From Oncomelania hupensis (taxonomy: Eukaryota; Mollusca; Gastropoda; Littorinimorpha; Pomatiopsidae), in assembly GCA_036898135.1 (NCBI GenBank), contig CM072522.1, positions 7,372,186 to 7,436,185 on the forward strand: a stretch of 64,000 nucleotides of DNA. Direction: 5' to 3'. A model generated the notes under the pieces. It was not told the origin of the DNA. It ran no database searches and worked only from the letters and a program-made list of their open reading frames with translations. The translations under genes were made by a program, and so were the position numbers. How positions within the stretch are numbered: the first letter of the stretch is position 1; the number at the start of each line of letters is the position of its first letter. Below, piece after piece: positions 18,111-51,673 of this stretch.

Positions 18111-18247
18111 CTCAATAATGATGGCTAAGTTGGGGTTCTTTCGGTAGAAGGTGCCAGAGACGTTGAACGAAGGGTTTGACGTGTTCTCCTGAAATCCAGA
18201 CTTCACCACCTCTCCCTCGCATCTAATGACGATTAGGGGGTTCAGCG
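18111..18247 (-). CDS. CAPN5-like: Calpain-like exon: C2 domain
   Basis: It encodes [20 protein letters not shown], then [20 protein letters not shown] and AIIIE. The C2 strand pattern (VIxCEGxxVxS, NPxFxVxGxFYRK) fits the CAPN5/6 tail. Acceptor TTTCAG at 18248, donor GAG then GTAACA at 18110. It ends in phase 0 with a donor, so at least one more exon follows; I did not recognise it in 1-18110. Confidence 0.9.
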
Positions 18248-21200
18248 CTGAAACAACCCAACTCTTCTATTACCAACTACCTATCTCATCCCTCAGCCTG
18301 TCGGGAAGTTGGTTCGCACCAGGAGATTTGCAGCTAGTGTAAAAGTGTGAACAAGGGAGCTGAAATTTAAACTACAAATACGAAAAGTAAGTATCTAATT
18401 TTGAATTTGTTTTTATACAGGGACATCGTCAGGAAGTGGATTGAACCCTATAATAAGGTGTTATAGCAAGAGGAAGCATTAGTGTCAATTGGAAGACTTT
18501 TATGCAGCAGAACCCCAGCACTCAAAACTGCAAAGATTCGAGTGTCATTCTACCTCTCGTGTGCAAAATGGTTTTTTGAATCACTTGATCGTTATTATAT
18601 GGCGCTTTTTGCAGCAGCTGCTCAAGGTGCTGAACGATACAAGATCTAACACACCGCGCCTCCCCTCCCCCCTCTCCTTCCCCCCTCAAGCGCCCACTTG
18701 CAGCCTTTGAGCGCATGTCTGACGCCCAGACAACTATCCTATCCCTAAACTCCAATGTCGTTGGGCCACCACAGATATTATCGCTTAACCAGCATACTCC
18801 ATCTTTCTCTGTAGTCCTCATGGCTTTACTCAAGCCAGTCCATTCTCGAATGTTGTCTTCCCACATCTTTTCATGCAGGATGGTCTTTGCAAGGCCTGAT
18901 GCTCTGGTGACGTGTCCATATCATCGGAGTTTTCGTTTCTTCACCGCTGTGAGCAAGTCATCGTGTTCTCCAATGGCTTGTGTGATGGTCTGTCGGACTT
19001 CGTCGTTGGTGATGTACTGGGTATAGGAAATGCTCAGAAGTCTTCTGTAGCACCTCATGTCCATTCTTTGTCTTCTTCGTTGTAGGTCTGCTGTGAGTGT
19101 CCATGTTTCGCAAGAGTATAGGAAGATGGAGATGACAAGGGAGCGCAGCAACCTTACCTTGGAGTGTAGACTGGTGGTCCTTTCTTTACAAAATGATGGG
19201 CTTCAACCTTGTCAGGGCAGCAGTTGTTTGCGCTATCCGGGAGATGACTTTTTGTCGGGACGCACTGTCTGATACAATTGCTTCTAAATATTTGAAGCTG
19301 TGCACTGTGTTGAGAGACTGGCCTTGGACTTCGATGTCCGTGTTGAAGAACAGAAGAATGTGATTTCTTAATTGTTAGTAGGCCTAGTAGTAGTTGTAGT
19401 AGTAGTAGCAATGGTAGCAGTAGTAGTAGTAGTAGCAGTAGTAGTAGTAGTAGCAGTAGTAGTTGTAGTAGTAGTAGCAATGGTAGCAGTAGTAGTAGTA
19501 GTAGCAGTAGTAGTTGTAGTAGTAGTAGCAATGGTAGCAGTAGTAGTAGTAGTAACAGTAGTATAGTAGTACAGTAGTAATATAGGGTGGCTTGCGAGTC
19601 GATGTATAGCGCCTGTGTCCAATGTCCAAGTTTCCAGTGACGCAAGAGGAAAACAGGAGTAGGGGGTGGTGGGATGGAGTGAGTGAGGGTGGGGAGGGAG
19701 AGGGAGAGAGAGGAGGCGAAATGTTTAATTTAGGTAATGAGGCTTATCAGGTAACCGAGGGTTTTCCCTGGTACTCCGGTTTACACCTTTTAAAAAAATA
19801 ATAATGTTGGATGCAGTCAGTCTATAGAACTTTACAAAACTACAACACACATTTCCATCTTTTAATAGCGATCTCCCCGCCTGTACACCTTTTGTTGGAG
19901 TGATGGATACCTGTGCCTTTGTTATGTATGTAGGAGTGTATATAAACATGTTAGCGTGTATGGTGGTTACAGATCGCCGCACTTTACAGTCTCCGTCCAG
20001 CACCCAGTATGATTATTATGATCATTCTTTTGCCATGCTCACTTCCTGTTGCGCCGTGCGGCAGGTCAAGATTGCGGCAGTTGATCACCCGAATGGTGGT
20101 CACCATTTTGAATGGAGGTCCACAGCACCCGGGTTTGGGACAATCCTCCGTCAATTCCCTGTCAATCAATCATCAATCAATAAATCAATAACAACAATAA
20201 AATATATTTTTAAAAAATATCAAGTAGAAGTGCAAAGCTCATGTGACTGGGTTTGGGACAATCCTCCGTCAATTCCCTGTCAATCAAAAATAAATCAATC
20301 AATAACAACAATAAAATATATTTTAAAAAAATACTAAGTGGAAGGGCAAAGCCCATATGACTCACATGCTCCTTATGAAACTTGCATTATTTAATATGAA
20401 AATGAATGCCCAGAAAAAAACAAAATGAAACAGTGGCATAAATATGCAAAGTACTACTGACTTTCATATTTCTATTCTCTTGACCTTGAGATGATCTTGA
20501 CCTTTGGCTCCAAATCCACTCATGTACTATCAATCAAACTACAGTCAAAATTATATTATGCCAAAAACAACAGTGACCTTGGGATGACTTTGACCTTCAG
20601 TGACCTTGACCTTGGGATGATCTTGACCTTCACATGATATCTCATGCTCATGTATGATAAAATAGCTCAATGTTGTTGCATACTATGGGTAATATAAAGC
20701 CATTCCTCTGTGTGATTACCCATTTTTGGTATACTTTTGCAAGGCCTATAATGATCTTGACCTTCAAGATCAACGCAAAAACTGAACATATATAAAAGAT
20801 CAATCTATCATCTCTAAACACACGTTTGGACTTTATATCAAAGTACCTATATTAACCGACTTTGGACAGCTCCAGTTATCTTGATCTTGCAGTGAGGTCG
20901 ACCAAATTTGCACAGGATGAGTGCCTCATTGATTTCTATCGTGCATTTAGGAATCGTAAGTTCAATATTAATAACTTAGAAAAATACTGAAATTTTGTGA
21001 AACATTGTAATCTTTTTAATTAACATTTGTTGACCGTGACCTTAACCTTGAAGTGAAGTCATTCCTTAACTGATCGTTTATGAGGTCTCATGAATATACA
21101 CCATCTTACCAAGTTTGGTTATGATAGTTGAAATAGGATCTTAGCTATTAATCCACATTACAGTTTTGCACAGACAGACGGCGGATGGCGGACACCGGAC

Positions 21201-24200: not shown

Positions 24201-27200
24201 GTCCCATATCCCCAAGCTGACCCAACAGACCCCATGTGCAAATGAGGAGTTTGGGGAGAGTTTTGAAGAAAAAAGTTAGGTGAGTGACTGGTCTAGAGAA
24301 AAAGACAGTAGATTGATAGAACAGATCATGAACGAGAAAGAACAAATGAGAATGACGACAGTTGGAATTTAAAGCACTAAATTTCCAGAAAGTGGGGATA
24401 CTATTTATACAGAAAACCCCGGCTGCCCAAAGGGGGTATGAAGCCGGAGGTCAAGGTCATCTTAAGGACAAGAACATAGAAAGATCAAAGTCGGTAATAC
24501 TTTGCATTTTAATCCCACGGTTTCATTTTAGTTTTGGTTTTTGTGTTCTTTTCTGGGCAGTCATTTTCATGTTAAACATTGTAAGGCGGATTTGAGTCAT
24601 GGGCTTTGCCCTTGTAGTTTGACTAACATTTGATGACCCTGTGACCTTGACGTGAAGTCATTCATTGACTGATCATTTATGAGGTCTCACGGATATTCAC
24701 CATGTTACCAAGTTTGGTCGTGATAATTAAAACAGGTTATGAGATATCAATCCATTTCCAAGTTTTGTAGACAGACGGCGGACAGACAGATGGACGGGCG
24801 GACACTTTTTTAGATATCAGTTTTGGACTATTTAGGACTCTCATCTCATACAGATTTGCAAAAATCTGGAACACTTTTATTTATTTTATTTTTTATATAT
24901 TTTATTTTGTATTTTTTGGGAGGAGGGTGAAGGGGGTGGGGGGAGTGGATGGGCGTAAGTACATAGATGACAATGACGGTTACATTAACTGATGGAAACA
25001 ACCTTTGCCCTTGTCGGTGGCATGCGCAGGAAAGCCAAAATTTCAGTGTCTCCTTGAGAACGGGCAGAAGGAGTGTAGTTTGCTGAGAGGGATTGGGACA
25101 AAAAGCGGCGACACCAGTTGCCTAACGCGGACATTGTTACCTTGCATCCTAGCACAGCACTCCGCTCACATCCCGACATGGGGCGCCAGGGGAACAGAGA
25201 GGGCAGACCTCGTCAATGCTACAACAACGCGGTGTGAGCGGTAGGTGGGTGTACTGACGTTGCCGGGCTGCCATCGGTGGTGTAAATCCGGCACAGAAAA
25301 TATCCGGTGGTGGCGGGCTCCAAGGTGGTGGGCACGACGACGTAGCGACCATGCGGCAGCTTGACCGAGCCGAAAGCGGAGCGCAGTGCCCGGTATTCGG
25401 ACGAAAACATTCTGTCCCCTTGGATGTGCATGCGGTACTTTCGGTTCTCCTCCACCTGTTACCACACACACAAACACACACACCCACACACGCACACACA
25501 CAAACCCACACACATATTTATGAGAACACGAAATGAATGATACATTTACAGGACACTTAGAAAGTCCAAGAGCTACTAAAGGTGTTGCATGAAAACAGGA
25601 TTTCACTCACCACCCAAAACGCTAACTGGCAGCACGACCCTAAACGATCTTAACATGTGAAGATGTGTGTGTGTGTGTGTCTGTGTGTGTGATGGGTGGG
25701 GGTCTGGTAGTGTGAAAGCTTTGAATGAGACAAACGCAACGTTTGATGTGGGATTTCTATTTTATGTGCATGTACAATCATATGCAGGTGTTATTCACAA
25801 CTTTCCGGCACCTCTCATAAAAACACGTGGGTATCGCCATTATAAATTAAAACGAGGTTATATGAAACCAAGTTCCGGTTTGGCTTGTTTTGCTTTTATT
25901 AAAGCTTGATGCGTGACTTTTAAATATGGCAAATTGCCGAAAACGACGATTGTTAGAGCCAGAAAACGAGTGGGATAAGTATAAAAACGGTGGAGGAAGT
26001 ACATGCTCAGTGAAAGAATGCAAAAAACAATCGTAGAGGCCTGTATTTGTGGCGACTTCGGAGGTGCGTCGATCATCGACAGAAAGTGAAACATGACCTG
26101 AAAACTCTTGTAGTTTTCCATAGCTTCGCCGTCGCAACCTTCACAAAACACGAAGTAACTGACTATGTTAGGCTAGCGTTGTGGCCAAGTGGTCGGGACT
26201 AACTTGCCTTCACAAAACACGAAGTAACTGACTATGTTAGGCTAGCGTTGTGGCCAAGTGGTCGGGACTAACTTGCCTTGTCTACAAGCCAGAAACCAAT
26301 GGCGCCTGACAGGTGTGGGTTCGAGCCAGCACCTGGGCGTTATATTTTTCCGAATATTTTTCAAAAATTCACAAATAATGTTATGTAGGTAGGGTTTAGG
26401 CGCGCCACTGGCGATAGAAAGGGATAATAAACTGCAGCAAAAAAAATAAAAATATGTGAGGGTACGATACAGGTAGCCAGTGACACATGTTATTATTCCT
26501 GAATATTTGGAAATAACTCACTAAAACACGCGGATAAAAAAAACCGGAAGTATTTTTCATAGAGGGGATTCCCGTTGGTGCATAGGATAGCATTAAAGTG
26601 TGAATAGTTTGGGTTTTTCTGTCGGTGGAAACTATTTTTTACTTTGTCTATTATACATTCTCCGTCGCATACAAATTGTCATTGATCTTAAATTAATTAT
26701 GTGTATTCGGTTTAGCTATGTGTATGATCATGTGTGTGTGAGCGCGTACGTGCGCGCGTGTGTTTCGGAAGTGTAGGGGTGGGCCTAGGTAAGCTATGCT
26801 GCCTAGATTGGGTGATAAGCACCCATCTTCTTACAACTTACAAGCGTGCGTGCTTGTGTGTTGCTATGGCATATTTTTTCCAATATCAATGTTCTGTGAA
26901 TAAAGATTTGTGACTTAAAGCCAACAGGCAGACCAACCCACACACCTTCATGATATGGAGCCCAATGCTGTGAAATACCCCATGAAGCGCCTCTCTGCCC
27001 TTCATGTCGTGCTGCTCAATGGACACCATGGCACGACCCGATTCGCCAGGGACGTCAAACATGAACTGCAACAGTTCATTATATTCTTATACTCCCTCAG
27101 GTATTATTATATTCTGTAAATTTTACTATCAGATGCATGTATTGATTTCTTGTCATGCGTTTATTCCATTCAGTTAATATACTTTTCCTCTCAAACATTT

Positions 27201-42405: not shown

Positions 42406-42451
<46 letters not shown>

Positions 42452-44189
42452 ACACACGCACACACACACACACGGTCCCTTATCTCCCATCCCTAGTCGC
42501 CCAAGATTGTCCGGAGCGTTAGCCAAGGTACCTATACGGCTGCAAGTTGGCGCCTCAAGAGACTTGATCGAGTTAGATCTACAATACAATACAATACAAT
42601 ACAATACAATACAATACAACTTTATTCATCCCAAAGGGCAATTACATTATAAGTTTATGAGGCAGCATAAAGAAACTCAAAAAATGTATCATAAACCAAT
42701 TTTTGAAAAAAAAAATAAATAAAAAAATAAAAAAAAAAACCAAAAAACTACAACAACATAAATTTAACAAACATCACACAAGCACACACACGCGAATCAA
42801 GATCACAAGTGATATCACAAAAGTCAACAAAATTCAACAAGTTGATTAAAAAGTTCAGCCAGTACACATAGACACTAAAGGGAGACTCTCACTATATCAC
42901 AAATAAGATCCCCAAAGTGCAGAAAACTAAAAGCGGTTAGTACTATTAAGCAGTCGGATTGCACTGGGAATAAAAGATTTAGAACGCCGATTTCCCTTAC
43001 AGATGGGCATAGCATATCGGCGTCTGGATGGCAACAGTGTGAACTCGGGTTTCAAACAATGTTCCTGAGGACTATGAAGGATGCTCCCGGTTTTCCGTAA
43101 GATCTGCTGATCACAGAAAGAAGAAAGATCTCTCTGCCTAACACCAATAATCTTTGAGCAGACATTGACTATGCTATTCAGGCTGTTCCTATCCTTCACA
43201 GTCAGACCGTGAAACCAACAGATAAAAGAAAAAGTCAGCAAACTTTCTATAAAAGACTGGTAAAACAAACTGAGGATCTTTGTGTTTACAGAGAAGGATT
43301 TTAGATTCCTAAGAAGATACATTCTTTGCTGACCACGTTTGACAAGACTGTGGGTGTTGACATCAAATTTCAGCTGACTATCAAAAACTGTACCCAAATA
43401 ATTATATGTGTCAACAACGTCCACATCTTCACCATGAATAACACATGGACGGACATCATCCTTCACTGTCCTAAAATCAAAAAGCATTTCTTTTGTTTTA
43501 GACACGTTCACCATCTAGCACCTAATGTTGATTTGTACCTTGCTGCATACTCACCTGATCGGAATACCCACAACTCGATGACTGCGCGTGCAGGTGCTAT
43601 AGCAAATAAATGAAACCCCTGTGCGCGCGAATGTCCGGCAAACAAATGTAACATAATTCGGCCAAACATCAACAACAACACGTTTTCCAAATCTATTCAT
43701 CGTAAAACTTGGTCCGTTTAATTGTACGGTTCAAATTTGCTGTGACCTCAAAGACGTACATTGAAAAAGCATGACGGAATCTGTACTCCACGCTATATTC
43801 CAGCGAAGTCACAGGTGGAATAGGGAGGCTTAACAAATGATGGAAGCGTCCATTTTGTTTTGAGCGAAGTTATAAGAGGGACCTGGTGGGCGGTTTTAGC
43901 ATCATAACCACTTACTTGGCATACGCTTTCTCCAGAAGAGAGCACCAGAACTCGTGCTTGTCTCTGGCGTGAACGAAGATGAGCTTGCCGTCTCTGCAGG
44001 GCAACCTGTCGTCCACCACAACGCTGTACCATTGTCCAAATCTGCATAACGGTGGACACGTTCAAGATTCAATGAATGAAATGTGGAATTGTAGAAAGGT
44101 GGTAGAATGTTTGCTTAGCGTCCAGAACAACTTGGCTCTGCATAACGATGGTGACCAGAGATTGTTGTTGTTGTTGTTGTTGTTGTTGT

Positions 44190-44234
<45 letters not shown>

Positions 44235-47200
44235 CTTCTTCTTCTTCTTCTTCTTCTTCTTCTTCTTCTTCTTCTTCTTCTTCTTCTTCTTCTTCGTCGT
44301 CGTCGTCGTCGTCGTCCTTCTTCTTCTTCTTCGTCTTTCTGAAAGACTTACCACCATCCTAAACGTCTCCCTCCCCAGCCCCCTCTACCCCAAACCCATC
44401 CCACAAACAGCAGCCTCACTCCCACTACCTCCTGAGCGCGTGTTACTGCTGCGCAACGTTAAAGAACCCGGTCAATGTGTCAAACGTCAGATGCCAATGA
44501 CAATGTATATTAATGTATTGTACTACAATTGTACTGTACTGCAGTTGTATATCTATTGTATTGTGGTGTATTGTATTGTATTGCAATGCAGTTGTAGCGT
44601 AGCGTAGTGTAGTATAGTATAGCATAGTATAGTATAGTATAGTATAGTATAGTATAGTATAGTATAGTATAGTATAGTATAGTATAGTATAGTATAGTGT
44701 AGTGTAGTGTAGTGTAGAATAGTTTCGTCACTACTAGTGTAGTGTATGGCAAAAAATAGCGTAGTGTGGTGTGTGCAGTGCATTGTGTATTATACATTTG
44801 TTGACTTGACTAGTGTAGTGTCGTGTCGTGTCGTGCATACTAACCTGAAAAAGTTGAAATGGAAGATGCCGGCATACTGAGGGTTCTTACCTAATCCAAA
44901 GTCCTGCTTATTGGGGATCACCTGTGGAAAATAACTTATGGCCAGTCATTCAGTCGCAGTCCGCTCGTCGGTCCGTCGCTCTGAATCTCGCCTTTTGTTC
45001 AAAGCACATTGTCTCAGAGCTTATTCTAGGGCGCGGGATGCGCGGGATCACGCACAAAAAGTTTTTTTCCCGCAAAGAAATTCGATGAGCGCGTTCGCGA
45101 TCCCGCGGAGATTGGAAAAATCCCGCTACATGTCTTGATCGAAGCGGGCTTTACTGTGACGTTTCTGTCGTCTGCTAGGGCGTAGCGGAAACTGGAGTTA
45201 AACGGAAGTTGCTCTCTTGTATATGCGATGTGTCTCAACTTTTCATTGGCTGATGCTTAATTTTTTTTGACCAATCACCTTTCTTCTGAGTGTGGCATCG
45301 ATGAACCTGACCAGTTGGAACTGGTTTACAATCAGAATCAGAATGGCTTCGAAAAAGCGCACGCTTTTCGACTTCGAATTCAGTGGAGGAACTGTGAAGA
45401 AAACAGTCACACTGTTTTCCCATGACTGATCTTCTAAAATAGCAGAGCTTTTATGCAACAGTTGTGAAAGCAAGGTTACAGATACCAGTTTGTGATATAT
45501 TTTGTCTGCGATTTGTGTGTACTTCCTGTTTGGAGAGAATGCGACACTTGAATGTTTCACAGTTTATCCGGGAACATCACGGGAGAAAACAGATATGGAT
45601 ATTTGTTTGTGTGTACACCCTATATATGCCGAGAAGACGCCCCCACTGTTTTGGTCAGAGGGGGGCCTAATCCCCCCCTTTTTTTCAAGGAAGGGGGGCC
45701 TGCCCCCACTTCTTCAAAATCCTAGAATAAGCTCTGTTGTCTGCCTTATCTCAAGAATAATTGAACCGAATTTGAATTATCTTATGCAGATACTGTAATG
45801 CAGATAATGCTACGCATTTTTAATAATTCGTACTTTGACCTTGTCAAAGGTCAACGCGGTAGCTCAGTGGTAGAGCGTCAAACTGGCAAACCCTGACCCA
45901 GGTTCCAATCCCTTGGTGGGCGAGATACAAAAAAATGGCCATCTTCACTGTCCATCTTAGCAGTATGATTGCTCTGGGGGTTCAGTGTTGATTTAGGTTC
46001 CTTAACCCCTTTTTCCTGAGATGGTTATCCCCGTCTGCCGTATCGCCAATGGTGGGTGTAGACGTTAAACTTCAACGTTCATTCATTCAAGGTCAAGGTC
46101 GCTGTGGTTCATCATTTTCTAAACACGTTTTGCGCTTTATTTCAAAATTGGCTAAAACAGATTTTGATTCTAATTTGCTTGCAAATACTTCAGACAGCGA
46201 CCCATCATTCCGAGCTTTTATTTCGCTTCCTCGGAATCAAGCAGAGGAGTCACAATATCGCCACGAAAAGCAATACATTTGAAAATACAGATTTTTCGGG
46301 TATGCGTGTGGTGTCTTCAAATATGTTGGAATAGCTTGCCAGCTTGTTTAGTCTTCGGTGTACGTATGTTGACAAATTTCGTTTTGATTTATTTATTTTT
46401 TTTTTAAATCGAACTATATCAGTGCATGCTTCTGCACGTCTGGGTCAACTGGGTTTCTTTTGCGTAATTTGTCATCAGTTTGCTTTGCTAGTTCAAAGTC
46501 TGGTTTGTGCCTGGCCGCCATTGATACGTATTTATAGTGCATGCAGTAGCTCTCAAACGCCCCCAAATTGGGGCAAAAGCTTGGTTAACACAAACAGCCA
46601 AACGGACGCAATGAAGAAACGAACTAACGAGGGAAGGAAACACAATTACATGACGCAAGGAATTTTTTTTAAAGGAAAAAAGGAAGGAAAAGGGACTGAA
46701 TCGAAGCAAGGAATACAGAAAAAGAAGGAAGCGGAACAAGGGAAGAAGAGGAAAGAAAAAGAATGAACCTATGCAAGGAATACAGAAAATAATGAAGGAA
46801 AACGCTTGGGAGAAGAAGAAGAAGAAAAGGAATGAACTGATACAAGGAAAACAGAAAAAGAAGGAGAAAACGGGAAGAAGAAGAACAAGAAGAAAAGGAA
46901 TGAAGTGACGTAAGGAATGCACAAAAAGAAGGAAGAATAAAACAGGAAGAAGAAAAGGAATGAACTGACGCAAGTAATACAGAAAAAGAAAAAAGGGGAC
47001 AACAGGAAGATGAAGAAGAAAGCAGAATGAAGGAATGGGCGCAATGAATAACGGCAAAGCAGGTAGCGGGGGAGAGAGGAGAAAGAGGAGGAATGAATTG
47101 ACGCGAGGAATAAAGACAAAGAAGGAAGGATGGGGGTGAGGTGAATGGAAAAGGAATGCATTGGCGCAAGGAAGAAGGGGGGAAGGAAAGAAATAAAAAA

Positions 47201-49587
47201 GGAATTAACTGATGCACGGTTTAAGGAAAGAAAAAGGAATGAACTGACGCAAGGAAGATGGAAGAAAGGAAAGAAAAAGAATGAATTGACGCAAGGAAGG
47301 AAGGAAGCACGCACCTTTGTCCATACAGACTTCTGAAGCGAGAAACAGACACATGCGGAGACAAACCAGTGGTTGTGGAGTTCTCCCTCGTCCAGCTCCT
47401 CAATGCTCACTCCCTCATCCATGAGCACCGGTACTTTACAAAACTCCTGGAACGGTAGCACTATAGTAAGCATCGAACACGATCTAACTACGAAGCTCCA
47501 CCACAAACAAAAGCATACCACTACCACCATCACCACAATACCACAACAACAACAACACCAACCACTGCCTCGGTCAGCTTGAGTTAGAGCCTGTATCAAC
47601 CAGCTCCGTGAGCTGCTCCTCAGCTGGAAAAGCGCTACGTAAGAATGATCAAATAAAATTAATGTCTCGCTATGCCTAGTATGGCATCTTGGATGTCCAT
47701 TTCAGAAACATCTTGAAAAAAAAGGATTTTCCGTTTTGCTTTCGTGTTTTTACATATTGGTTTCGCTGTACCAGTGTAGGAAATCGAATCCTGAAGCAAA
47801 ACGGTTTCCCGTTTCCTTTCGTGTGATCGTGCTTGTTTAGCTGTGGCTTCTCGTGTGACTGTTACAAACATCTTTGTTTCGTGTTTCAGAACATGCTCTG
47901 AACACTGGCTGCTTTGGGATGTGAAACACTTTTTAACTTGAAAGAGGCTAATTAAATACATACATCTGAACGGATACAGCTCTGGCACGAGTGCAGAATT
48001 AGAGTGCATGGGTAAAAAAATAAAACGACGAAAGCGCCGGGTCTGTTGTAAATATGTCTCGGCAAGAAACGCAAATATAGGTATCGATTTCCGCAAGTGT
48101 CTTCTAGGATTTTCATTGGCCTAAAACTGATATTGCATGGCATTTGACCAATCACATATGGCCATGTGTCTAGCTAAGCTTGGAATATCAAAGTCGTAAG
48201 AATTCTTACACGGACTACTTACACCTGTTGTCCTGATAAAAGAAAAAAAAAAATCTCTCCTCTACGTATTGAAGACGAGCTTATAGATCTAGACTATTAG
48301 TCCCAGGAAACCATTGAGGAGGGTGCATATTTAATTCCCGACAAGGCTTACTAGAAGGCGCTTAATAGCACACACAAAATGTAACATATCTGTTTCGTCG
48401 TCAAACGAAAGCAAAAGTGCACGACTACAGCTCAAGTCATTGTTTGAACCGCACGAGCCTGCATTCGATTCAATTCACAGTTAGTGCACAGTATAGGCCT
48501 GTCTTCTTGCAGCTGTTTACTTTACCTTAACGATAAAGCCAACGAAATGTCAAAATTCTTACTTCTGTGCGGGATGCTAACAAAAACCTTCATAAGTGCC
48601 GCCATTTTTTTGTTATAGTTACGTAGGAAACGTCATCAATTTCCATCCGTATAACACTATAGGCCTATTGCCAAAGTGACGTGTAATGCTGCTTTTAATC
48701 AAATTGATTGTATCGGCCAAGAATATTTCAATGTTTTTATAATGACAAGGGCGAAAGCGTGAAACGTGACAGTTTGTTGAGAATTAAAATGTGCTGCAAA
48801 CTTGTCCAATGCGTGAACTACTTTGTTGTGGTGCATTCTTTGGAATGTGTTGTGTGAAGTGGTCTATGACATAGGCCTATGAACAACTTTGGTGTGTTTA
48901 TTCCTAAACTATCCCAATCCTATCCCGTAACTCAAAGGTCGTTGGGACACCTCGTTTAACCAGCGTACTCCATCTTTCTCTGTTCTCAGCAAACCTCATG
49001 GCTTCGTTCAGTGTCAAACCAGTCCATTCTCGAATGTTGTCCTCCCAACTCTTTTTCTATCTCGCTCTTCTTCTGCCTCCTTGCACCGTTCCTTGCAGGA
49101 CGGTTTTTGCAAGGCCTGATGCTCTGGTGACGTGGCCATACCATCGGAGTTTCCGTTTCTTCACCACTGCTGGCATGTCATCGTGTTGTCCAATGTCTTG
49201 TCTACCGGACTTCGCCCTTAGTGATGTGCTTGCTGGGTATAGGAAATGCCCAGAAGTCTTCTGTAGCACCTCATCTCCATGCTTTGTATTCTTCGTTGTA
49301 GATCTGCTGTGAGAGTCCATGTTTCGCATGCGTATAGGAAAATGGAGATGACAAGGGAGCGCAGCAGCTTTACCTTGGAATGTAAACTGATGGTCCTATC
49401 TTTCCAAATGTCGAGACCCATTGTCTGATACAATGGCTCCTAACTATTTGAAGCTATGCACTGTGTTGAGGGATTGGCCTTGGACTTTGATGTCCATGTT
49501 GATTGATGGTTTTGGTGTTGTTGGTAATCATTTTGGTCTTCTCTGCACTTATTTTCATTCCATAGGCTCTAATAATAATAATAATAA

Positions 49588-49618
<31 letters not shown>

Positions 49619-51673
49619 AAGAAGAAGAAGAAGAAGAAGAAGAAGAAGAACGGATTTTTATATAGCGGGTACTCCAGCCTATGACCAGACTCACCACGCT
49701 TTACATAGTCATTACATCTAAATACATGCACATGATAAAACATCGCTTTTGCTACAATACACCAAAAGACGGAACAGTAAAGGTACAAACTATTTACAAC
49801 TATGTACACAAATTACAAAAAAGACAGAAATAGACTATTTACAACTATGTACACAAATGACAAAAAAGACAGAAATAGAATAGCAAAAACCTATTCACAG
49901 CTATTTATATGCCCGGTTAGGCCCAGGAGGAAAAACAGTATAAATATTTACAGCCGTGTATACACTTACGGATCAGACAGAGACAAAAGAGGAGAGAATG
50001 GCAGCGTAATACAAATCAGTCTGAATAATGCAGTTTGAAGAGGTGGGTTTTGAGGGCCTTTTTGAATGCTTGTGTTGATTGTATGTTGCGGATATGGGAG
50101 GGAAGGGAATTCCACTGCTTAGGTGCGGAGTAAGCGAATGCACGTTGGCCGTATGTCTTAGTGCGGGTGACGAGAACCTTGAGTGTGCGAGTGTCAGCAG
50201 AAGATCTTAAAGTGCGTGAAGGGGAGTAGACAGACAGTAGATCAACAAGGTAGGAAGGACAAGAATCTGTGAAGAAGTTGTGACAGAGAACAGAGAGTTT
50301 GTACTCTATGCGTGCTTGCACAGGAAGCCAGTGAAGGGAATGTAGTAGAGGTGTGATGTGATCGCGTTTCTTAGCTCGGAATACTAGTCTAGCTGCTGAG
50401 TTCTGGACCTTTTGTAGTTTGTCAATGATGTGTTTTGGGGAGCCAGCGAGGAGAGAGTTGCAATAGTCAAGACGAGAAAGGACGAGAGCGCAGACTAGGG
50501 TTTTGGTGGCAGTGACTATAAGATAGTGGCGAAAGGAGCTGATTTGGCGTATGGCCGTGTATGCAGAGCGACAGACGTTGGAGATGTGGTTGTTGAGGGA
50601 CAGGTCATCGGAGAGAATGTAGCCGAGATTTCTTGCTGAGGACGAGAACTGAATGTTTGTTGTCCCTACTGTAAGCGATGTTGGGAGAGGCGAGAGTGAG
50701 GAGGAGGTGTTGTGCTTGTGAATGAGGAGGGCTTCGGTTTTATCGTCATTAAGCTTAAGCTTGTTGATGGTCATCCATGACTTAATGTCTGTGATGCAGT
50801 TCTCCAAAGTCTTAACAGTGGAATTTATGAGAGAGGGGGCAGTGGATTTATAAAGTTCTAAAGGTGGTGTCAAGCCTCTGTACAAGCTGTTCAAGTTCTT
50901 GTTCCTCTCCAGCCAATGTATCAATGTCATCCGCAAAACGGAGGCTGGAGATTGCTCTACCCCCTATGCTGACTGTGCCTTCGTGATCTGCAAGGGCATC
51001 TGACATGATGCGCTCTAGGAAGATGTTGAAGAGTGTTGGAGAGAGTAGGCATCCTTGACGCACACCGATTGTTGTTCTGAACCAGTTCCCGATGGCTCTG
51101 TTGTGGAGGACTGCACTGGTAGTCTTATCATACAGGTTTTTGTGTGTTTATTGCTTTTGGCAAATATCTCATTTTATAGTTTGATTTGATGAAATCGAGA
51201 CATAAATGTTATCGGCATCTTCGGCTCTTGGGAACATTGAATATATCTCGTTGGACATATCTCATATTCTATGCCAAGATGCCGATAAGGTATAATATAC
51301 CTCACCACCTGGAAATGAACACTGCTGCAACTCAATCAAAATGTATGAATATTATAGGCATTATTGCCGGGTGCCTTTATAGAGCTGACTCATAGTCATG
51401 ATGTAGATTAGAGAGTCAAGGGTAGCCAATCACCACTTCGTCCGCATCAGTATCACTGTTAGTAGGCTTAGTGTCGGCCATGTTTGCAACATGAAGACCT
51501 CCACTTCCCTCTTACCTTAGGCCTCTTCCATTCAATGGTGTTGTCCACTTTGGTGAAGAACAAGGATTTGCTGTTGGCCGGGAACTCTTCGTCCTCGAAC
51601 AGCTTCCCCATTGTCAACAGCTTCTTCTTGATATGGTGGTAGTTTTGGTTCCGAAAGTCCTTGACCGCTTTGC
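18111..51673 (-). CDS. CAPN5-like: Calpain-5/6-like pseudoprotease gene (12 exons placed)
   Basis: Calpains are cytosolic Ca-dependent cysteine proteases; the CAPN5/CAPN6/TRA-3 group ends in a C2 domain instead of a penta-EF hand. Twelve exons of 1700 coding bases (about 566 residues) read in order: PC1, PC2, domain III, C2. All introns are GT-AG, every junction keeps phase and no exon has a stop, which argues for a living gene. Family length is about 640 residues, so a few N-terminal residues and roughly 60-70 C-terminal residues are missing from my reconstruction. The catalytic Cys is His and the catalytic His is Gln; the Asn remains. By analogy with vertebrate CAPN6 the product may be structural or regulatory, which is inference. 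Introns are filled with mobile elements. It resembles CAPN5 more than classical calpains by its C2 tail. Confidence 0.9.
18248..18589. other. Intron sequence, nothing recognised
   Basis: Single-copy-looking intron DNA of the calpain gene between the C2 exon and the SINE at 18590. Confidence 0.5.
18590..18733 (-). mobile_element. tRNA-derived SINE, 3' fragment
   Basis: It has ATATGGCGCTTTTTGCAGC and GCTCAAGGTGCTGAACGATAC on the plus strand. It is heavily diverged and cut at the LINE 3' end. Confidence 0.7.
18735..19340 (-). pseudogene. RTE-like LINE, 3' portion, frameshifted
   Basis: Minus-strand pieces read [60 protein letters not shown] and [13 protein letters not shown] in different frames. 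It ends in the (GGATA)-type tail near 18735. It is 5' truncated at 19340, beside a GTA repeat. Confidence 0.85.
19378..19566. repeat. GTA microsatellite with internal period
   Basis: GTA/GTAGCA/GCAATG triplets in a second-level repeat of about 60 bp. Long frames across it are artefacts. Confidence 0.9.
19567..20042. other. Intron sequence, nothing recognised
   Basis: No repeat family and no exon recognised before the linker/C2 exon at 20043. Confidence 0.5.
20043..20158 (-). CDS. CAPN5-like: Calpain-like exon: linker and start of C2 domain
   Basis: It encodes [20 protein letters not shown] then [18 protein letters not shown], the first beta strand of a C2 domain. Acceptor ATTGACAG at 20159, donor AGGAA then GTGAGC at 20042. 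One base completes the previous codon and one carries over. The first 28 bases of the exon and its acceptor are duplicated 118 bp away at 20249-20276, so a decoy acceptor lies in the intron. Confidence 0.9.
20131..20340. repeat. 118-bp direct duplication spanning an exon edge
   Basis: GGGTTTGGGACAATCCTCCG starts at 20131 and again at 20249. The unit covers 28 bases of the linker/C2 exon, its splice acceptor, an (A/T)CAAT-rich intron stretch and the first bases of the adjacent TGACC element. Confidence 0.9.
20336..21380 (+). mobile_element. TGACC element, near full length
   Basis: About 1045 bp, from GGAAGGGCAAAGCCCATATG to TTGCTATGCCTGTCAGTC. It has a GGGCAAAGCCC palindrome at the start, GACTCACATGC near the start, about nine TGACCTTGACC-like motifs, a GACGGCGGAC tract and a G-rich stretch near the end. 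It encodes no protein. Confidence 0.88.
21571..21632. repeat. CA microsatellite
   Basis: Impure CA/CG run (ACACGCACGCGCGCACACAC and continuing). Confidence 0.9.
21767..22465 (+). mobile_element. HP retroposon, long form (699 bp), 14-bp TSD
   Basis: Flanked by AATCTATCTGAGCA at 21753-21766 and 22466-22479. It starts with CCCCTTGGGG, then a 130-bp leader containing an inverted pair (CCTATGAAGGG and TTTCCTTTATAGG), then the G/C hairpin, the TATAAATAG box, the common body, and a (CAAT)n tail. A 60-codon frame ([13 protein letters not shown]...) is open at 22232-22414. No polymerase is encoded. Confidence 0.9.
22628..23365 (+). mobile_element. TGACC element, 5' and central part
   Basis: It starts at AGAATGGCAAATCCCATATG and runs to TTGAACCAAATTC, where an inverted copy begins. 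Its own 3' third continues at 24629. Confidence 0.85.
23366..24628 (-). mobile_element. TGACC element, inverted copy, split by HP
   Basis: Reverse-oriented TGACC sequence (CCAAGGTCAAGGTCAATAG and similar) at 23366-23842 and 24441-24628. It ends with GTCATGGGCTTTGCCCTTG, the inverted start of the family. An HP variant separates the two parts. Confidence 0.85.
23860..24440 (-). mobile_element. HP retroposon, variant B, short form
   Basis: Same structure as HP but diverged, with a (CTAA)n tail (TAGTTAGTTAGTTAGTC on the plus strand) instead of (CAAT)n. The 5' end is the hairpin at about 24420-24438. Confidence 0.85.
24629..24970 (+). mobile_element. TGACC element, 3' third
   Basis: GACTAACATTTGATGACCC to GTACATAGATGACAATG, continuing the copy begun at 22628. 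Confidence 0.8.
24971..25258. other. Intron beside the domain III exon
   Basis: GC-richer intron DNA. An open stretch after TTGTTGTAG near 25220 has a possible donor (GTGAGC) but its phase does not fit and no homology is visible, so it is not called. Confidence 0.5.
25259..25455 (-). CDS. CAPN5-like: Calpain-like exon: domain III part 2
   Basis: It encodes [20 protein letters not shown], then [20 protein letters not shown] and [13 protein letters not shown]. ENRxYRMH and GRYVxxPTTxEP are close to CAPN5. Acceptor GGTAACAG at 25456, donor GCAAC then GTCAGT at 25258. It ends after two bases of a codon. A (CA)n run lies about 10 bp upstream of the acceptor. Confidence 0.92.
25461..25520. repeat. 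CA microsatellite
   Basis: CACACACAAACACACACACC-type run just upstream of the domain III exon acceptor (minus strand). Confidence 0.9.
25656..25692. repeat. GT microsatellite
   Basis: About 14 GT units with one CT interruption. Confidence 0.9.
25693..26137. other. Intron sequence, nothing recognised
   Basis: Single-copy-looking intron DNA; open frames on the minus strand show no domain. Confidence 0.4.
26138..26275. repeat. 69-bp tandem duplication
   Basis: Two copies of a 69-bp unit beginning CCTTCACAAAACACGAAG at 26138 and 26207. The unit contains the first part of a tRNA-like sequence. Confidence 0.95.
26245..26340 (+). mobile_element. tRNA-like sequence (SINE head or tRNA pseudogene)
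   Basis: Box A GTGGCCAAGTGGTC and box B GGTTCGAGCC are present, spaced with a longer variable region as in tRNA-Leu/Ser-like heads. The acceptor arms pair poorly, so it is not called a functional tRNA. Confidence 0.6.
26341..26945. other. Intron sequence, nothing recognised
   Basis: AT-rich intron; a GT/GC-rich patch near 26730-26765. Confidence 0.4.
26946..27065 (-). CDS. CAPN5-like: Calpain-like exon: domain III (CBSW) part 1
   Basis: It encodes [20 protein letters not shown], then [16 protein letters not shown]. Compared with family members the order NPQ-FxFDV and IGxxIxKVE is kept. Acceptor GTTGCAG at 27066, donor ATGAAG then GTGTGT at 26945. 40 whole codons, phase 0 at both ends. Confidence 0.9.
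27066..27696. other. Intron sequence, nothing recognised
   Basis: AT-rich intron between the domain III exon and the inverted repeat; no exon recognised. Confidence 0.4.
27697..27855. repeat. 50-bp perfect inverted repeat
   Basis: Arms 27697-27746 and 27806-27855 are exact reverse complements (CTTGTTTCTTTCTTTCTTGC outward), with a 59-bp spacer that holds another copy of the same GCTTGCTTGTTGTTTTTGTC phrase. The right arm ends exactly where the gypsy RT reading frame is cut. Confidence 0.97.
27856..28588 (-). pseudogene. Ty3/gypsy pol: start of reverse transcriptase, truncated
   Basis: The minus strand encodes [39 protein letters not shown] and [16 protein letters not shown], then [15 protein letters not shown] and [10 protein letters not shown], typical gypsy RT blocks 1-4. 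The catalytic YxDD block, RNase H, integrase and 3' LTR are gone because the frame stops at the inverted repeat at 27855. An in-frame TGA at 28382-28384 breaks the linker before the RT. It lies in sense orientation inside a calpain intron. Confidence 0.93.
28589..29353 (-). pseudogene. Ty3/gypsy aspartic protease region
   Basis: It encodes a retropepsin-type segment with the active-site motif [12 protein letters not shown], then GIPILVVRE and LLVGMNVL, the usual order for gypsy protease. It is in the same frame as the RT, separated by a TGA at 28589-28591, and in the -1 frame relative to gag, with 106 bp overlap. That fits a gag-pol frameshift, although mutation cannot be excluded. A C-run on the plus strand lies at 29203-29217. 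Confidence 0.9.
29248..30045 (-). CDS. Ty3/gypsy gag with zinc knuckle
   Basis: 265 residues beginning [20 protein letters not shown]. It has a capsid-like retrotransposon gag region ([33 protein letters not shown]), a Gln-rich linker and a CCHC knuckle [14 protein letters not shown] near the C-terminus, which binds element RNA. The first Met is chosen because it precedes the conserved LPTFTGDG; the true start may be upstream. The frame is intact although pol is broken. Confidence 0.92.
   Translation of the reverse strand: MQKLWMMPPSKLPTFTGDGDEVEDFTQGARRILGHCQLDGGTAMEWLLQSLRGCARQEIIQRADVKTAEEALGVLEETFAEQRGVTSTLSRFHSRQQGAGETVLQYGQQLQQLALRSNTRKVGSIPDKMLRDKFVEWLKSQDLRRELRRIIRGEDVSYLRARAEAQCWLKEEDRDGDSVTTQQQTATPVPDPQGMAAPQSQLAELKEQLQQLNQRPQSAPQRDTRTAVCWVCGQRGHLQRSCPQRQPHVQPPRGQQSPRGQQRNC
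30046..30480 (-). mobile_element. Gypsy leader, primer-binding site and probable part of 5' LTR
   Basis: On the minus strand a likely tRNA primer-binding site TGGCACTGCGAGCAGGAT lies at 30247-30264, a few bases after CACTACA, a possible LTR end. Further right lie an AATAAA near 30401 and a CT run (30348-30372). The left LTR border is not fixed because the 3' LTR is missing. Confidence 0.6.
30481..31244. repeat. AT-rich stretch with repeated GGAAAACTATTCT motif
   Basis: At least five versions of GGAAAACTATTCTAAGTGGC occur in both orientations between about 30780 and 31235, some as inverted pairs (GGAAAACTATT and AATAGTTTTCC at 30921-30958). No gene. Confidence 0.7.
31245..31896 (+). mobile_element. 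TGACC element, 5' truncated
   Basis: It starts within the family at GTTGTATTATGC, followed by a C-run, and runs to GTACAAAGACTAATATTGC where the terminal tandem array begins. Confidence 0.85.
31890..32505 (+). repeat. 32-bp tandem array of the TGACC terminus, about 19 units
   Basis: Unit AATAAAGACTAACATTGCTA plus TGCATGTCAGCC. It is the last part of the TGACC element, repeated head-to-tail. Variants (CCCATAAAG or CCAATAAAG, CACTGCT or CATTGCT, GTGAGCC or GTCAGCC) cluster in blocks, a sign of stepwise expansion. Confidence 0.97.
32605..32785 (-). CDS. CAPN5-like: Calpain-like exon: end of PC2 into domain III
   Basis: It encodes [20 protein letters not shown], then [17 protein letters not shown] and [18 protein letters not shown]. 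It corresponds to the calpain MxFxDFxxxFTxxxxC segment, the HGxW strand and the Gly-rich loop ending NPQ. Acceptor TTGCAG at 32786, donor CGCAG then GTGACG at 32604. The first base completes the previous codon; it ends in phase 0 so that NPQ joins FMFDV. Confidence 0.93.
32786..33099. other. Intron sequence, nothing recognised
   Basis: Includes C-rich and CAC-rich patches; no repeat family or exon recognised. Confidence 0.4.
33100..33800 (+). mobile_element. TGACC elements, a 5' stub then an internally deleted copy
   Basis: A start (AAGGGCAAAGCCCATATCAC) at 33100-33180 is followed by a new start at 33181. The second copy jumps from the TGACCTTGACTTTCAAG region to the 3' end and finishes in a G-rich stretch. 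Confidence 0.8.
33797..34130 (+). repeat. 39-bp tandem array of the TGACC terminus, about 8 units
   Basis: Unit AACTAACATTGCTATGCATG plus TGAGTCAAAATCTAAATTA. It has the same terminal core as the array at 31890 but a different linker, so it expanded independently. Confidence 0.95.
34131..34380 (+). mobile_element. TGACC element, central fragment
   Basis: GCATTAAAATACAAAGCAATACC to CCCAATGTTGTTG, ended by an HP fragment. Confidence 0.8.
34383..34470 (+). mobile_element. HP retroposon, 5' fragment
   Basis: Hairpin start (ACCCCCGTGGGGGTGCC), GTATAAATAG box and the first 88 bp only; it ends 25 bp before the donor side of the exon at 34496. Confidence 0.85.
34496..34588 (-). CDS. CAPN5-like: Calpain-like exon: PC2
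   Basis: A short exon encoding [19 protein letters not shown] then [11 protein letters not shown], equivalent to the calpain EW and DGEFW segment. Acceptor CATCCACAG at 34589, donor TCAAG then GTTATT at 34495. Both split codons match neighbours (1 + 90 + 2 bases). A truncated HP retroposon ends 25 bp past the donor. Confidence 0.85.
34675..35025. repeat. CAT-rich imperfect triplet tract
   Basis: CAT/CAC/CATCAT triplets, GAT on the minus strand. The Asp-rich frame across it is a repeat artefact. It lies directly after the PC2 exon donor. Confidence 0.9.
35044..35201 (-). CDS. CAPN5-like: Calpain-like exon: PC2 core, His replaced by Gln
   Basis: It encodes [20 protein letters not shown], then [20 protein letters not shown] and GPWHTG. 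Active calpains have GLVxGHAYxVT with the catalytic His and (R)NPWG with the catalytic Asn. Here GHAY reads NQWY, so His is Gln, while the Asn in FNLWG is kept. Acceptor TTCACAG at 35202, donor ACTGG then GTCGGT at 35043. Starts in phase 0 and ends after two bases. A (CAT)n-rich tract begins about 20 bp after the donor. Confidence 0.93.
35285..35425 (+). repeat. Short dispersed repeat, copy 1
   Basis: It shares GCGCGTGCAGG and GCGCGTGAATGTCCGGCAAA with 43525-43655. Confidence 0.7.
35575..35885 (+). repeat. About 310-bp repeat, copy 1
   Basis: It resembles 37285-37612 along its length: AATTGCAACAG, AATGCCTTTTCTGCAAT, GGTTAAAGTTCA, GGCATGACCCTCGG. Confidence 0.8.
35990..36226 (+). repeat. Dispersed repeat D, copy
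   Basis: It has GTCTGTCCGTCGGTCCGTTGC, AAATTTGCTCTACTGCAAAGG and ATATCTCAAAGACTGCTAAACC, as in other D copies. Confidence 0.65.
36227..37083 (+). pseudogene. RTE-like LINE, 3' half, frameshifted
   Basis: It encodes [20 protein letters not shown] (RT motif C region) then [27 protein letters not shown] and [19 protein letters not shown]. An internal deletion and frame change near 36640-36760 follow, then [20 protein letters not shown] and [18 protein letters not shown]. It ends in a (GGATA)n tail at 37057-37083. It is 5' truncated at motif B. Confidence 0.9.
37057..37083 (+). repeat. GGATA tail of the LINE
   Basis: Five GGATA pentamers; the same pentamer ends the copies at 18735, 48905 and 60644, so it is the family's 3' tail. 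Confidence 0.9.
37085..37330 (+). repeat. Dispersed repeat D, copy
   Basis: TGGTTGGTGGATCGGTTGGTCC, then CCTATCTCCAGAATGATAGG and ACTACTGCTAAGCATTTTTC, similar to 44938-45800. Confidence 0.6.
37285..37612 (+). repeat. About 310-bp repeat, copy 2
   Basis: Paralogue of 35575-35885, diverged with small gaps. Confidence 0.8.
37612..37672 (+). mobile_element. HP retroposon variant B, 3' end fragment
   Basis: CGGCTCTTTGCAGTCCGCTGG, ATAAACAATGACTAACTAAC: the (CTAA)n-tailed variant. Confidence 0.75.
37688..38130 (+). mobile_element. tRNA-derived SINE, full length
   Basis: Best-preserved head: GGCACTGTGGTCTAATGG (box A) and CCCGGGTTCGAGCCC (box B), then the common body, GGCGCCTTATAAATGACG and an (ATT)n tail. 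CAATTAT on both sides is a probable TSD. It lies in the calpain intron just past the exon at 38172. Confidence 0.92.
38172..38376 (-). CDS. CAPN5-like: Calpain-like exon: end of PC1, linker to PC2
   Basis: It encodes [37 protein letters not shown], then [20 protein letters not shown]. VYGxYEAL and ALVDFTGGV are calpain hallmarks. Acceptor TTTCAG at 38377. I place the donor at GAC then GTAATA at 38171, because that keeps phase 0 and joins ESD to GLV of the next exon; an alternative GTGCTG lies slightly upstream. A tRNA-SINE ends about 40 bp from the donor. Confidence 0.93.
38586..39248 (-). mobile_element. HP retroposon, long form, 12-bp TSD
   Basis: TSD ATTGCTTATAAT at 38574-38585 and 39249-39260. 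It has the leader with inverted pair CCTATAAAGG and CCTTTATAGG, hairpin, TATA box, body (with a 50-bp internal deletion near 39025) and (CAAT)n tail. The 60-codon frame is open. Confidence 0.92.
39444..39741 (+). mobile_element. Composite tRNA / 5S rRNA SINE, 13-bp TSD
   Basis: TSD AATACAAATCCAA at 39431-39443 and 39742-39754. The head reads GATAGCTCAGTGGTAGGAGC (tRNA box A), then GTTAAGCACCGTC and GGTTAGCACTTGGATGGGTG with ACCGC, matching 5S rRNA A box, intermediate element and C box. A body of about 170 bp and a CCTTTAACTTTAA tail follow. A head that joins tRNA-like and 5S-like parts is unusual. Confidence 0.92.
39755..40364. other. AT-rich stretch, no gene recognised
   Basis: It includes a few ATTCA repeats near 39815 and 'gagagtcc' phrases; no exon or element identified. 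Confidence 0.4.
40365..41050 (+). mobile_element. TGACC element, 3' end missing
   Basis: CGATATGACTCACATGCTCC to GAGGTCTCATGGATATACCC. Confidence 0.85.
41097..42150 (+). mobile_element. TGACC element, near full length
   Basis: AGAAGGGCACAGCCCATATG to CACTGCTATGCATGTCAGTC, about 1054 bp, with all family landmarks including the GACGGACGGACGGAC tract. Confidence 0.9.
42412..42473. repeat. CA microsatellite
   Basis: About 28 CA units with few interruptions. Confidence 0.95.
42579..43517 (-). pseudogene. LINE reverse transcriptase C-terminus, Rex1-like
   Basis: The minus strand encodes [72 protein letters not shown] and [20 protein letters not shown] to the stop at 42927. The 3' UTR ends with AATAAAGTTG and a (TTGTA)n tail at 42581-42618. 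The sequence is like the Rex1/Babar type; the clade is tentative. 5' truncated at about 43517; the remaining frame is intact. Confidence 0.88.
43525..43655 (+). repeat. Short dispersed repeat, copy 2
   Basis: It shares TACCTTGCTGCATACTC and GCGCGCGAATGTCCGGCAAA with 35285-35425. Confidence 0.7.
43916..44041 (-). CDS. CAPN5-like: Calpain-like exon: PC1 beta-sheet region
   Basis: It encodes [14 protein letters not shown], then [20 protein letters not shown] and EKAYAK, a textbook calpain segment (VVxDDRLP, [13 protein letters not shown]). Acceptor TGCAG at 44042, donor CAA then GTAAGTG at 43915. One base completes the previous codon and two bases carry over to the next exon. Confidence 0.95.
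44163..44335. repeat. Compound triplet microsatellite
   Basis: (TTG)n, then (TTC)n, then (GTC)n, then (TTC)n, each block uninterrupted for several units, in the intron between calpain exons at 43916 and 44845. Confidence 0.97.
44600..44735. repeat. AGTAT/AGTGT pentamer repeat
   Basis: About 20 AGTAT pentamers grading into AGTGT, with looser pentamer sequence on both sides. Confidence 0.95.
44845..44921 (-). CDS. CAPN5-like: Calpain-like exon: PC1
   Basis: It encodes [20 protein letters not shown] then HFNFF, matching the calpain VIP and AGIFHFxFWR segment. Acceptor CCACAG at 44922, donor TCAG then GTTAGT at 44844. Starts in phase 0 and ends after two bases of an Arg codon completed by the next exon (RFGQW). 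Confidence 0.92.
45015..45736 (+). mobile_element. hAT-like non-autonomous DNA transposon (722 bp)
   Basis: Perfect 16-bp terminal inverted repeats CAGAGCTTATTCTAGG at 45015-45030 and 45721-45736, flanked by the 6-bp direct repeat TTGTCT at 45009-45014 and 45737-45742. CAG-starting ends fit hAT; the TSD is 6 bp rather than the usual 8, as reported for some hAT groups. Inside, ATGGCTTCGAAAAAGCGCAC opens a 28-codon frame ([13 protein letters not shown]...) that may be a remnant of a transposase start. No transposase is present. Confidence 0.85.
45855..46088 (+). mobile_element. tRNA-derived SINE, second family
   Basis: Head GCGGTAGCTCAGTGGTAGAGC (box A within) and GGTTCCAATCC (box B), body with CCTTAACCCCTTTTTCCTGAG, tail TTCATTCATTC. 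AAGGTCAA at 45847-45854 and 46089-46096 is a probable TSD. Confidence 0.85.
46151..46589. other. Intron sequence, nothing recognised
   Basis: No exon or repeat family recognised. Confidence 0.4.
46590..47312. repeat. Purine-rich minisatellite
   Basis: Imperfect units built from GGAATGAACTGACGCAAGGAA and GAA-rich linkers, about 14 times; nearly all purine on the plus strand. Long pyrimidine-encoded frames on the minus strand are artefacts. It ends at the donor of the calpain exon at 47315. Confidence 0.93.
47315..47446 (-). CDS. CAPN5-like: Calpain-like exon: PC1 active-site loop, Cys replaced by His
   Basis: It encodes [29 protein letters not shown] and SLQKSVWTK. In active calpains this loop reads GELGNCWF with the nucleophile Cys; here it reads GELHNHWF, so Cys is His (TGY to CAC needs two base changes) and the Gly is His too. 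Acceptor CCAG at 47447, donor AAAG then GTGCGT at 47314. Phase 0 at both ends. A purine-rich minisatellite begins just after the donor; long pyrimidine-encoded frames continuing from this exon are not part of the gene. Confidence 0.93.
47578..47662 (+). mobile_element. tRNA-SINE, 3' fragment
   Basis: CTTGAGTTAGAGCCTGTATC, AGCTGGAAAAGCGCTACGTAAG. Confidence 0.75.
47663..48903. other. Intron sequence, no gene recognised
   Basis: About 1.2 kb of single-copy-looking DNA. A minus-strand frame at 47659-48096 has no recognisable domain. Confidence 0.4.
48905..51139 (-). pseudogene. RTE-like LINE interrupted by another LINE
   Basis: Upstream part 50856-51139 encodes [20 protein letters not shown] and [19 protein letters not shown] up to RLDTT. 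The downstream part 48905-49570 continues from [11 protein letters not shown] to the C-terminal [20 protein letters not shown] region and the GGATA-type tail, with frameshifts. The gap is filled by the LINE at 49571-50855. Confidence 0.9.
49571..50855 (-). mobile_element. CR1/jockey-like LINE, 5' truncated, nested
   Basis: An uninterrupted minus-strand frame (50016 to about 50850) encodes the C-terminal [85 protein letters not shown] and [14 protein letters not shown] 3' UTR and a (TTC)n(TTA)n tail (49571-49650) follow. It sits inside the RTE-like LINE; a short TCT-containing target repeat is visible at both borders. The frame is intact, so the insertion is fairly recent. Confidence 0.92.
51140..51515. 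other. Intron sequence, nothing recognised
   Basis: No exon or repeat family recognised. Confidence 0.4.
51516..51673 (-). CDS. CAPN5-like: Calpain-like exon: N-terminal anchor and start of PC1
   Basis: It encodes [19 protein letters not shown], then [11 protein letters not shown] and IEWKRPK, matching the calpain start (NQxY, LFED-x-FPA, WKRPK). Acceptor TTTGCAG at 51674-51680, donor AAG then GTAAGAG at 51515. It starts with two bases of a split codon, so an upstream exon with the ATG and a few codons must exist; it was not found. It ends in phase 0. Confidence 0.93.

Follow-up and report, generated by a model that had tools for sequence, protein, structure and literature searches.

A calpain gene of the snail Oncomelania hupensis has other residues where active members of its family carry their catalytic cysteine and histidine. 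This raises the question of whether the gene abandoned catalysis by itself, is decaying, or belongs to a larger set of calpains that do without cleavage. It lies on contig CM072522.1 of assembly GCA_036898135.1, in a stretch of 64,000 nt (7,372,186-7,436,185) that is called the window here. In our judgement it is likely to be a fast-evolving gene of an ancient, predicted non-proteolytic clade of calpain-5 proteins in a caenogastropod snail, the active site having been remodelled near the base of that clade.

Gene structure and surroundings

The gene is encoded on the minus strand by 13 coding exons, running from 51673 down to 11531, all in phase. Most exons were located by tblastn with a human calpain-5 query, the splice sites were read from the sequence flanking each match, and exon I came from a scan of open AG-to-GT segments. 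The exons, each matched by tblastn, are as follows.

Exon A, 51516..51673, minus strand: N-terminal helix and start of the protease core, ending in WKRPK (E 3e-15 to 5e-14 with three snail proteins)
Exon B, 47315..47446, minus strand: GELHNHWF, with the catalytic Cys replaced by His and the oxyanion Gln by Glu
Exon C, 44845..44921, minus strand: protease core PC1 (weak match, E 0.0004 to 0.015)
Exon D, 43916..44041, minus strand: protease core PC1, VVVDDRLP, bearing the Glu of Ca2+ site 1
Exon E, 38187..38376, minus strand: protease core PC2, DALVDFTGG, donor at 38187 or 38172
Exon F, 35044..35237, minus strand: GLVTNQWY (His replaced by Gln) and FNLWG (Asn kept), two Ca2+ site 2 ligands gone
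Exon G, 34511..34588, minus strand: protease core PC2 (weak match, E 0.003 to 0.006)
Exon H, 32605..32785, minus strand: end of the protease core and start of domain III
Exon I, 26946..27065, minus strand: domain III (Calpain_III)
Exon J, 25259..25455, minus strand: domain III
Exon K, 20043..20158, minus strand: linker and start of the C2 domain
Exon L, 18111..18247, minus strand: C2 domain
Exon M, 11531..11680, minus strand: end of the C2 domain and TAG stop

AG precedes each of the 13 exons and GT follows the first twelve, but because the borders were picked as AG and GT these dinucleotides are weak proof alone. Firmer evidence comes from three snail proteins, each of which matches all 13 exons in tblastn (the best E-value elsewhere is 0.37). 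The preliminary description had counted twelve exons within 18111..51673, open, in phase and bordered by GT-AG. These properties hold, but the terminal exon at 11680-11531, outside that span, had been missed, and the start of exon F has moved. The acceptor of exon F is probably 35237, because the 12 residues that it adds match CAEEDRGSEVEH of a relative; an acceptor at 35201 was rejected, as it would drop a stretch found in relatives. Exon E has two candidate donors, both in frame: 38187 has a poor consensus and gives the length seen in relatives, while 38172 has a better consensus and adds five residues. A first model of 610 aa was used for Pfam, the first protein search, the solved-structure search and the first tree. 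A second model of 617 aa, in which exon E ends at 38187, was used for the residue counts, the later trees and the selection tests.

Both ends of the gene deserve mention. The TAG in exon M comes about 12 codons early, since the tblastn match to all three snail relatives extends beyond it to 11498. A search of the 12,327 bases upstream of exon A with five narrow patterns did not reveal the exon that holds the start codon. A processed pseudogene is ruled out by the introns.

The exons are set among repeats and retroelements.

1-2046, plus strand: 681-codon frame, open at the window edge, with a reverse transcriptase match
13672-14645: tandem array of a 137-base unit (7.1 copies, 99% matches)
20131-20362: 114-base unit, tandemly doubled (88% matches), which includes the exon K acceptor and the very start of that exon
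27818-30195, minus strand: gag-pol type retroelement within the H-I intron, with matches to a zinc knuckle, an aspartyl protease and a reverse transcriptase spread over three frames
31896-32505: tandem array of a 32-base unit (19.1 copies, 95% matches)
42930-43514, minus strand: 195-codon frame with a Pfam ALKBH8_N match, probably repeat-derived
50851-51147, minus strand: RVT_1 fragment between exons A and B

The doubled unit at exon K provides a second possible acceptor upstream. As for the ALKBH8_N model, we take it to match reverse-transcriptase-linked repeats as well.

Active site, calcium ligands and fold

The three motifs on which the preliminary description rested, GELHNHWF, GLVTNQWY and FNLWG, are indeed present on the minus strand, from 47386, 35201 and 35093, and they align with GQVGNCWF, GLVKGHAY and RLRNPWG of calpain-5. 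This alignment bears out the replacement of both catalytic residues: in calpain-5 numbering, Cys81 is His and His252 is Gln, with Asn284 kept. Gln75 of the oxyanion hole is Glu, and Gly79, Gly251 and Pro285 are also replaced. Where an active peptidase of family C2 has Cys-His-Asn and the oxyanion Gln, the window protein thus has His, Gln, Asn and Glu. Sequencing error was rejected as an explanation, as the codon at the Cys81 site (CAC) is at least two base changes away from any Cys codon and the change from His to Gln sits in a different exon. From these residues, the window protein is almost certainly without proteolytic activity. That its fold still cleaves peptides by way of other residues is hardly credible. 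Asn284 and Trp82 are kept, and several bivalve relatives combine a kept His with Ser or Thr, which are possible nucleophiles in principle. However, at the known sites the window protein offers neither a nucleophile nor a general base, its oxyanion Gln is missing as well, and in relatives the Cys site is occupied by Ala, Met, Pro, Val, Gly or Arg, all unable to attack.

The Ca2+ ligand positions of CAPN1 and CAPN2, as listed in the accessible part of PMC4057710, were transferred to the window protein and its relatives through alignment. Gly67, Glu157 and Glu322 are kept and Asp72 is Glu, but in site 2 Glu290 has become His and Asp297 Thr, so that the window protein departs from the retention of ligands that is usual, though not universal, among its relatives.

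Over its whole length the window protein has the domain order of the C2-tailed (CAPN5/TRA) calpains, with Peptidase_C2 followed by domain III and a C-terminal C2. The Pfam scores of the 610-aa model (268.5 bits for Peptidase_C2, 72.6 for Calpain_III and 35.7 for C2) mean that the similarity is not due to chance. Among solved structures the best sequence match is the calpain-5 protease core 6p3q (239 bits), with calpain-2 chains near it at 234 bits. The fold was considered on a relative from Babylonia areolata, which has Ser at the Cys site and Gln at the His site. Its predicted model (pLDDT 89.3, pTM 0.87) superposes on 6p3q with a TM of 0.92 by target length and an rmsd of 1.8 A, and on m-calpain over 523-550 columns with a TM of 0.59-0.67 by query length. 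This relative is therefore predicted to keep the CAPN5 fold despite the change from Cys to Ser. The position of the window TAG maps within the last C2 strand of this model (609-621). NCBIfam profiles gave no match to two relatives, and the precomputed Pfam annotation has no C2 for the Nucella lapillus and Babylonia relatives (P0001, P0002), though their C-terminal part aligns.

Relatives and the pattern of loss

Among the matches listed, the closest proteins come from Nucella lapillus (ACOMHN_040903) and Babylonia areolata (calpain-5-like), 53% and 52% identical along their full length, and from Batillaria attramentaria (50%). All three are also without the catalytic Cys and His. Three protein searches with lophotrochozoan queries were used, and the best 120 of 388, of 7899 and of 7900 matches were pooled, the second and third searches having scored 8000 candidates each. 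Of the resulting 235 proteins, 46 depart from Q-C-H-N and 43 have no Cys; those with names among the 46 are from molluscs, annelids, a nemertean and a brachiopod. Because the queries were lophotrochozoan, inactive calpains of other groups would not surface, and the 235 proteins are no census. Every gastropod protein in the residue table is without Cys. In three species the first and second copies are on contigs of equal length and so probably on one contig per species (P0020/P0068 in Mytilus trossulus, P0003/P0028 in Batillaria and P0004/P0026 in Gigantopelta).

The main trees hold 58 hand-chosen proteins of the 235 plus the window protein. Of the 43 Cys-less proteins they include 34; the nine left out (P0017, P0031, P0068, P0087, P0092, P0114, P0116, P0120 and P0190) would only raise the count of losses. 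An earlier tree had 61 proteins and the window protein, after 10 rows were dropped beforehand. In that tree P0116, from Dimorphilus, has an end branch of 1.6 and falls among the snails, which was taken for an artefact; P0120 is in no tree. The main tree was built without the catalytic-motif columns. It places the window protein with the caenogastropods (support 100/99), the gastropods (100/94), the molluscs (100/99) and finally a 41-row clade of lophotrochozoans (100/100), whose phyla and mollusc classes are mostly recovered as groups. The LG+C20 tree places it alike, with SH-aLRT values of 99 for caenogastropods, 99 for molluscs and 100 for the lophotrochozoan clade; some inner branches are weaker, at 84 for molluscs without the chiton and 85 for gastropods. 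The rows are all of CAPN5/6 type, with no classical calpains as rivals, and among them the window protein is within the CAPN5-type clade. On these sequence trees, then, the window gene is a member of a well-supported lophotrochozoan group, for which our working name is the second CAPN5 clade.

This placement changes what the gene had been taken for. The preliminary description saw a separately evolved pseudoprotease of the C2-tailed group. The protein is C2-tailed, has no triad and stands apart from vertebrate CAPN6 on the tree, but the loss is not its own: 34 of the 40 other sampled clade members are without Cys, and a loss private to the window gene is ruled out because relatives share it. 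The Cys-less vertebrate CAPN6 that served as its parallel is a mammalian case, as gecko and chicken CAPN6 keep Q-C-H-N in the residue table. In the main tree gecko CAPN6 groups with vertebrate CAPN5, and the trees that include CAPN6 (gecko and chicken in the first tree) give no orthology between it and the window protein.

Across the 40 other members, catalytic and structural sites have fared very differently. Cys81 is kept in 6, Gln75 in 18 and His252 in 21, as opposed to Trp82 in 40, Asn284 in 39 and Trp286 in 39. At the Cys81 site ten different residues occur across the clade, Cys among them, and Gln stands at the His252 site in 9 of the 40. The tree requires 7 changes at Cys81 by parsimony, or 9 losses if regain is barred; for His252, with regain barred, there are 11 losses. 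The 101 columns that are invariant in 19 canonical rows have a median retention of 97.5% in the clade, and Cys81 (15%), Gln75 (45%), His252 (53%), Ala85 (5%) and Ala253 (0%) are all among the nine least-kept columns. Ala85 and Ala253 are near the active-site residues. All 19 canonical rows read A/A/C/R at positions 85/253/377/411, which none of the clade's 41 rows does; the window protein has S/W/S/K, its Trp253 contrasting with Gly in 38 of the 40 others. Ala85 is found in 2 of the 40 and Ala253 in none, and both are replaced even in members that have Cys and His, such as the chiton. This suggests that remodelling of the site preceded the loss of the nucleophile, which then occurred repeatedly. 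As His is kept in 21 members and Cys in 6, some may still be active. P0022, from the clam Mactra antiquata, has an intact Q-C-H-N and is nested among Cys-less clams; this nesting could reflect either a regain of Cys or several losses of it close by on the tree.

The Ca2+ ligands are better preserved. Site 1 is well kept (Gly67 in 36/40, Asp72 in 38/40, Glu157 in 37/39). Site 2 is partly relaxed across the clade, with Glu290 at 80% (32/40), Asp297 in 33/40 and Glu322 in 37/40, so it is still largely retained (at least 80%). This retention is what allows the clade to be read as a putative Ca2+-responsive module.

The reading we favour can thus be set out as a model. In a second C2-tailed (CAPN5/TRA) lineage of lophotrochozoans, the active site would have been remodelled at or near the base. 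The nucleophilic Cys would then have been lost repeatedly in proteins that retained their fold, Trp and Asn of the active site, and the majority of Ca2+-ligand positions. By analogy with mammalian CAPN6 on microtubules, such proteins may serve as Ca2+-responsive binding modules, holding partners without cleavage. The window copy is a probable duplicate that is two ligands short at Ca2+ site 2 and has a truncated last C2 strand, and it may work independently of Ca2+ or be relaxing.

One sequence bears on the age of the clade. P0223, from the mussel Potamilus, retains the full triad and splits off immediately outside the lophotrochozoan clade as a whole. The idea that it is an ordinary orthologue was rejected, since forcing it with bivalves gives an AU p of 1.6e-34 and with all molluscs 7.5e-5. 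Its position suggests an old duplication, as judged from a single sequence with long branches involved. A wider reading builds on such an event, and we hold the case for and against it to be about evenly balanced. The C2-tailed calpain would have duplicated before the lophotrochozoan phyla diverged, one copy remaining a protease. The other, remodelled copy would no longer rely on catalysis, losing Cys and His independently many times while retaining the Ca2+-driven closing of the two core halves, as a counterpart of CAPN6 in four phyla. Snails would later have produced fast second copies, the window gene also shedding Ca2+ site 2. A triad-bearing paralogue in molluscs, together with the two TRA calpains of Aplysia described in the open portion of PMC5650170, also lends something to the idea of a decoy, in which the window protein restrains the same animal's active C2-tailed calpain by occupying its substrates or partners. 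This is very unlikely: among the matches listed (the best 120 per search) there is no triad-bearing snail copy, although this does not prove its absence.

Constraint, decay and known calpains

No other snail copy on the tree is as diverged as the window gene. Its end branch in the main tree is 0.74, about six times those of Nucella (0.11) and Babylonia copy a (0.13), and the second copies of Babylonia (0.41), Batillaria (0.55) and Gigantopelta (0.59) also have long ones. No special tie of the window protein to Babylonia copy b emerges, as LG+C20 joins them with a support of 17. Of the 101 canonical invariants the window protein keeps 77, whereas the slow copies from snails keep 89 or 90.

The columns on which three snail copies agree were binned by their conservation in the other 35 clade rows, excluding motif columns. 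From the most to the least conserved bin, the window protein departs in 7/90, 27/102, 46/97 and 46/82 columns (Fisher p 2e-12 between the ends). Its departures track conservation, which neutral change would not do, and this argues for purifying selection over most of the gene's history. The 617 codons are free of stops and frameshifts. Under simulated neutral change the mean number of stops is 3.6 at 90% identity, 6.2 at 80%, 9.8 at 70% and 12.0 at 60%, although among the 60 runs made per identity level the minimum at 90% is 0. GC3 of the gene is 0.703 versus a GC of 0.424 for the whole locus. Mismatches to the snail relatives have a mean BLOSUM62 score of -0.17, compared with -0.08 to 0.13 for pairs of like identity and -0.62 under neutral simulation; by these scores, constraint on the gene is not tight.

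The same data bear on a decaying duplicate, a gene that would have worked as a pseudoprotease up to the recent past and whose C-terminus, splice donor and Ca2+ sites would now be eroding. We regard this as rather unlikely. It would account for the stop about 12 codons early with similarity running on past it, the poor donor of exon E, the start exon missing from the upstream search, the changes at Glu290 and Asp297, the long end branch, and the fast second copies in three other snails. Against it stand the intact frame, the strong dependence of the changes on column conservation, and the presence of all 13 exons in phase. The early stop, the poor donor and the lost ligands do mean that relaxation may be recent, and a short recent neutral phase is possible. 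The earlier view that the gene is "still under selection" therefore applies to the branch as a whole and perhaps not to its latest part.

A fast member of a predicted non-proteolytic clade remains our preferred reading, and as such the single gene is less surprising than first held; the interest shifts to the clade. In the accessible parts of the literature inactive calpains are known singly (CAPN6, CalpC, CLPR) and by count. Calpains with incomplete triads are retained, with 344 calpain-like proteins in PMC3315469 and 337 non-peptidase homologues in PMC4631099. No description of the lophotrochozoan clade was found in the open-licence texts as far as these are accessible, and their supplementary tables may contain members. 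Over four phyla, the clade has lost the same nucleophile repeatedly in an otherwise conserved calpain, and its members with Cys beside those without form a natural series for studying the roles of calpains without cleavage. Its sequences also suggest that the mollusc and annelid entries named calpain-5 in it are often not proteases.

The nearest comparison is with the Nucella and Babylonia relatives, in which, as in the window protein, Cys is replaced (by Ser), His is replaced (by Phe and Gln) and Asn is kept. They differ from it in that Ca2+ site 2 still has its Glu and Asp, the last C2 strand is complete and the branches are short; the window protein differs further in its His at the Cys site, its Trp at 253 and a Leu in place of the Pro of NPW. 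Aplysia also has molluscan C2-tailed (TRA) calpains, AplTra1 and AplTra2, a likeness drawn from their description in what is available of PMC5650170. CalpC, one of the inactive calpains named above, is placed in the classical family by the same text, as far as it is open, and is outside the rows of the trees. The human calpain-5 core 6p3q shares family and fold with the window protein and has Cys81-His252-Asn284, of which the latter keeps only Asn. Vertebrate calpain-6 is C2-tailed and, in mammals, without the catalytic Cys, as the window protein is, although the two are not orthologous; according to the accessible parts of PMC3179291 and PMC13413365 it promotes microtubule stability. If the wider reading is true, four phyla would possess a CAPN6 counterpart in the lophotrochozoan clade, concealed by the calpain-5 label.
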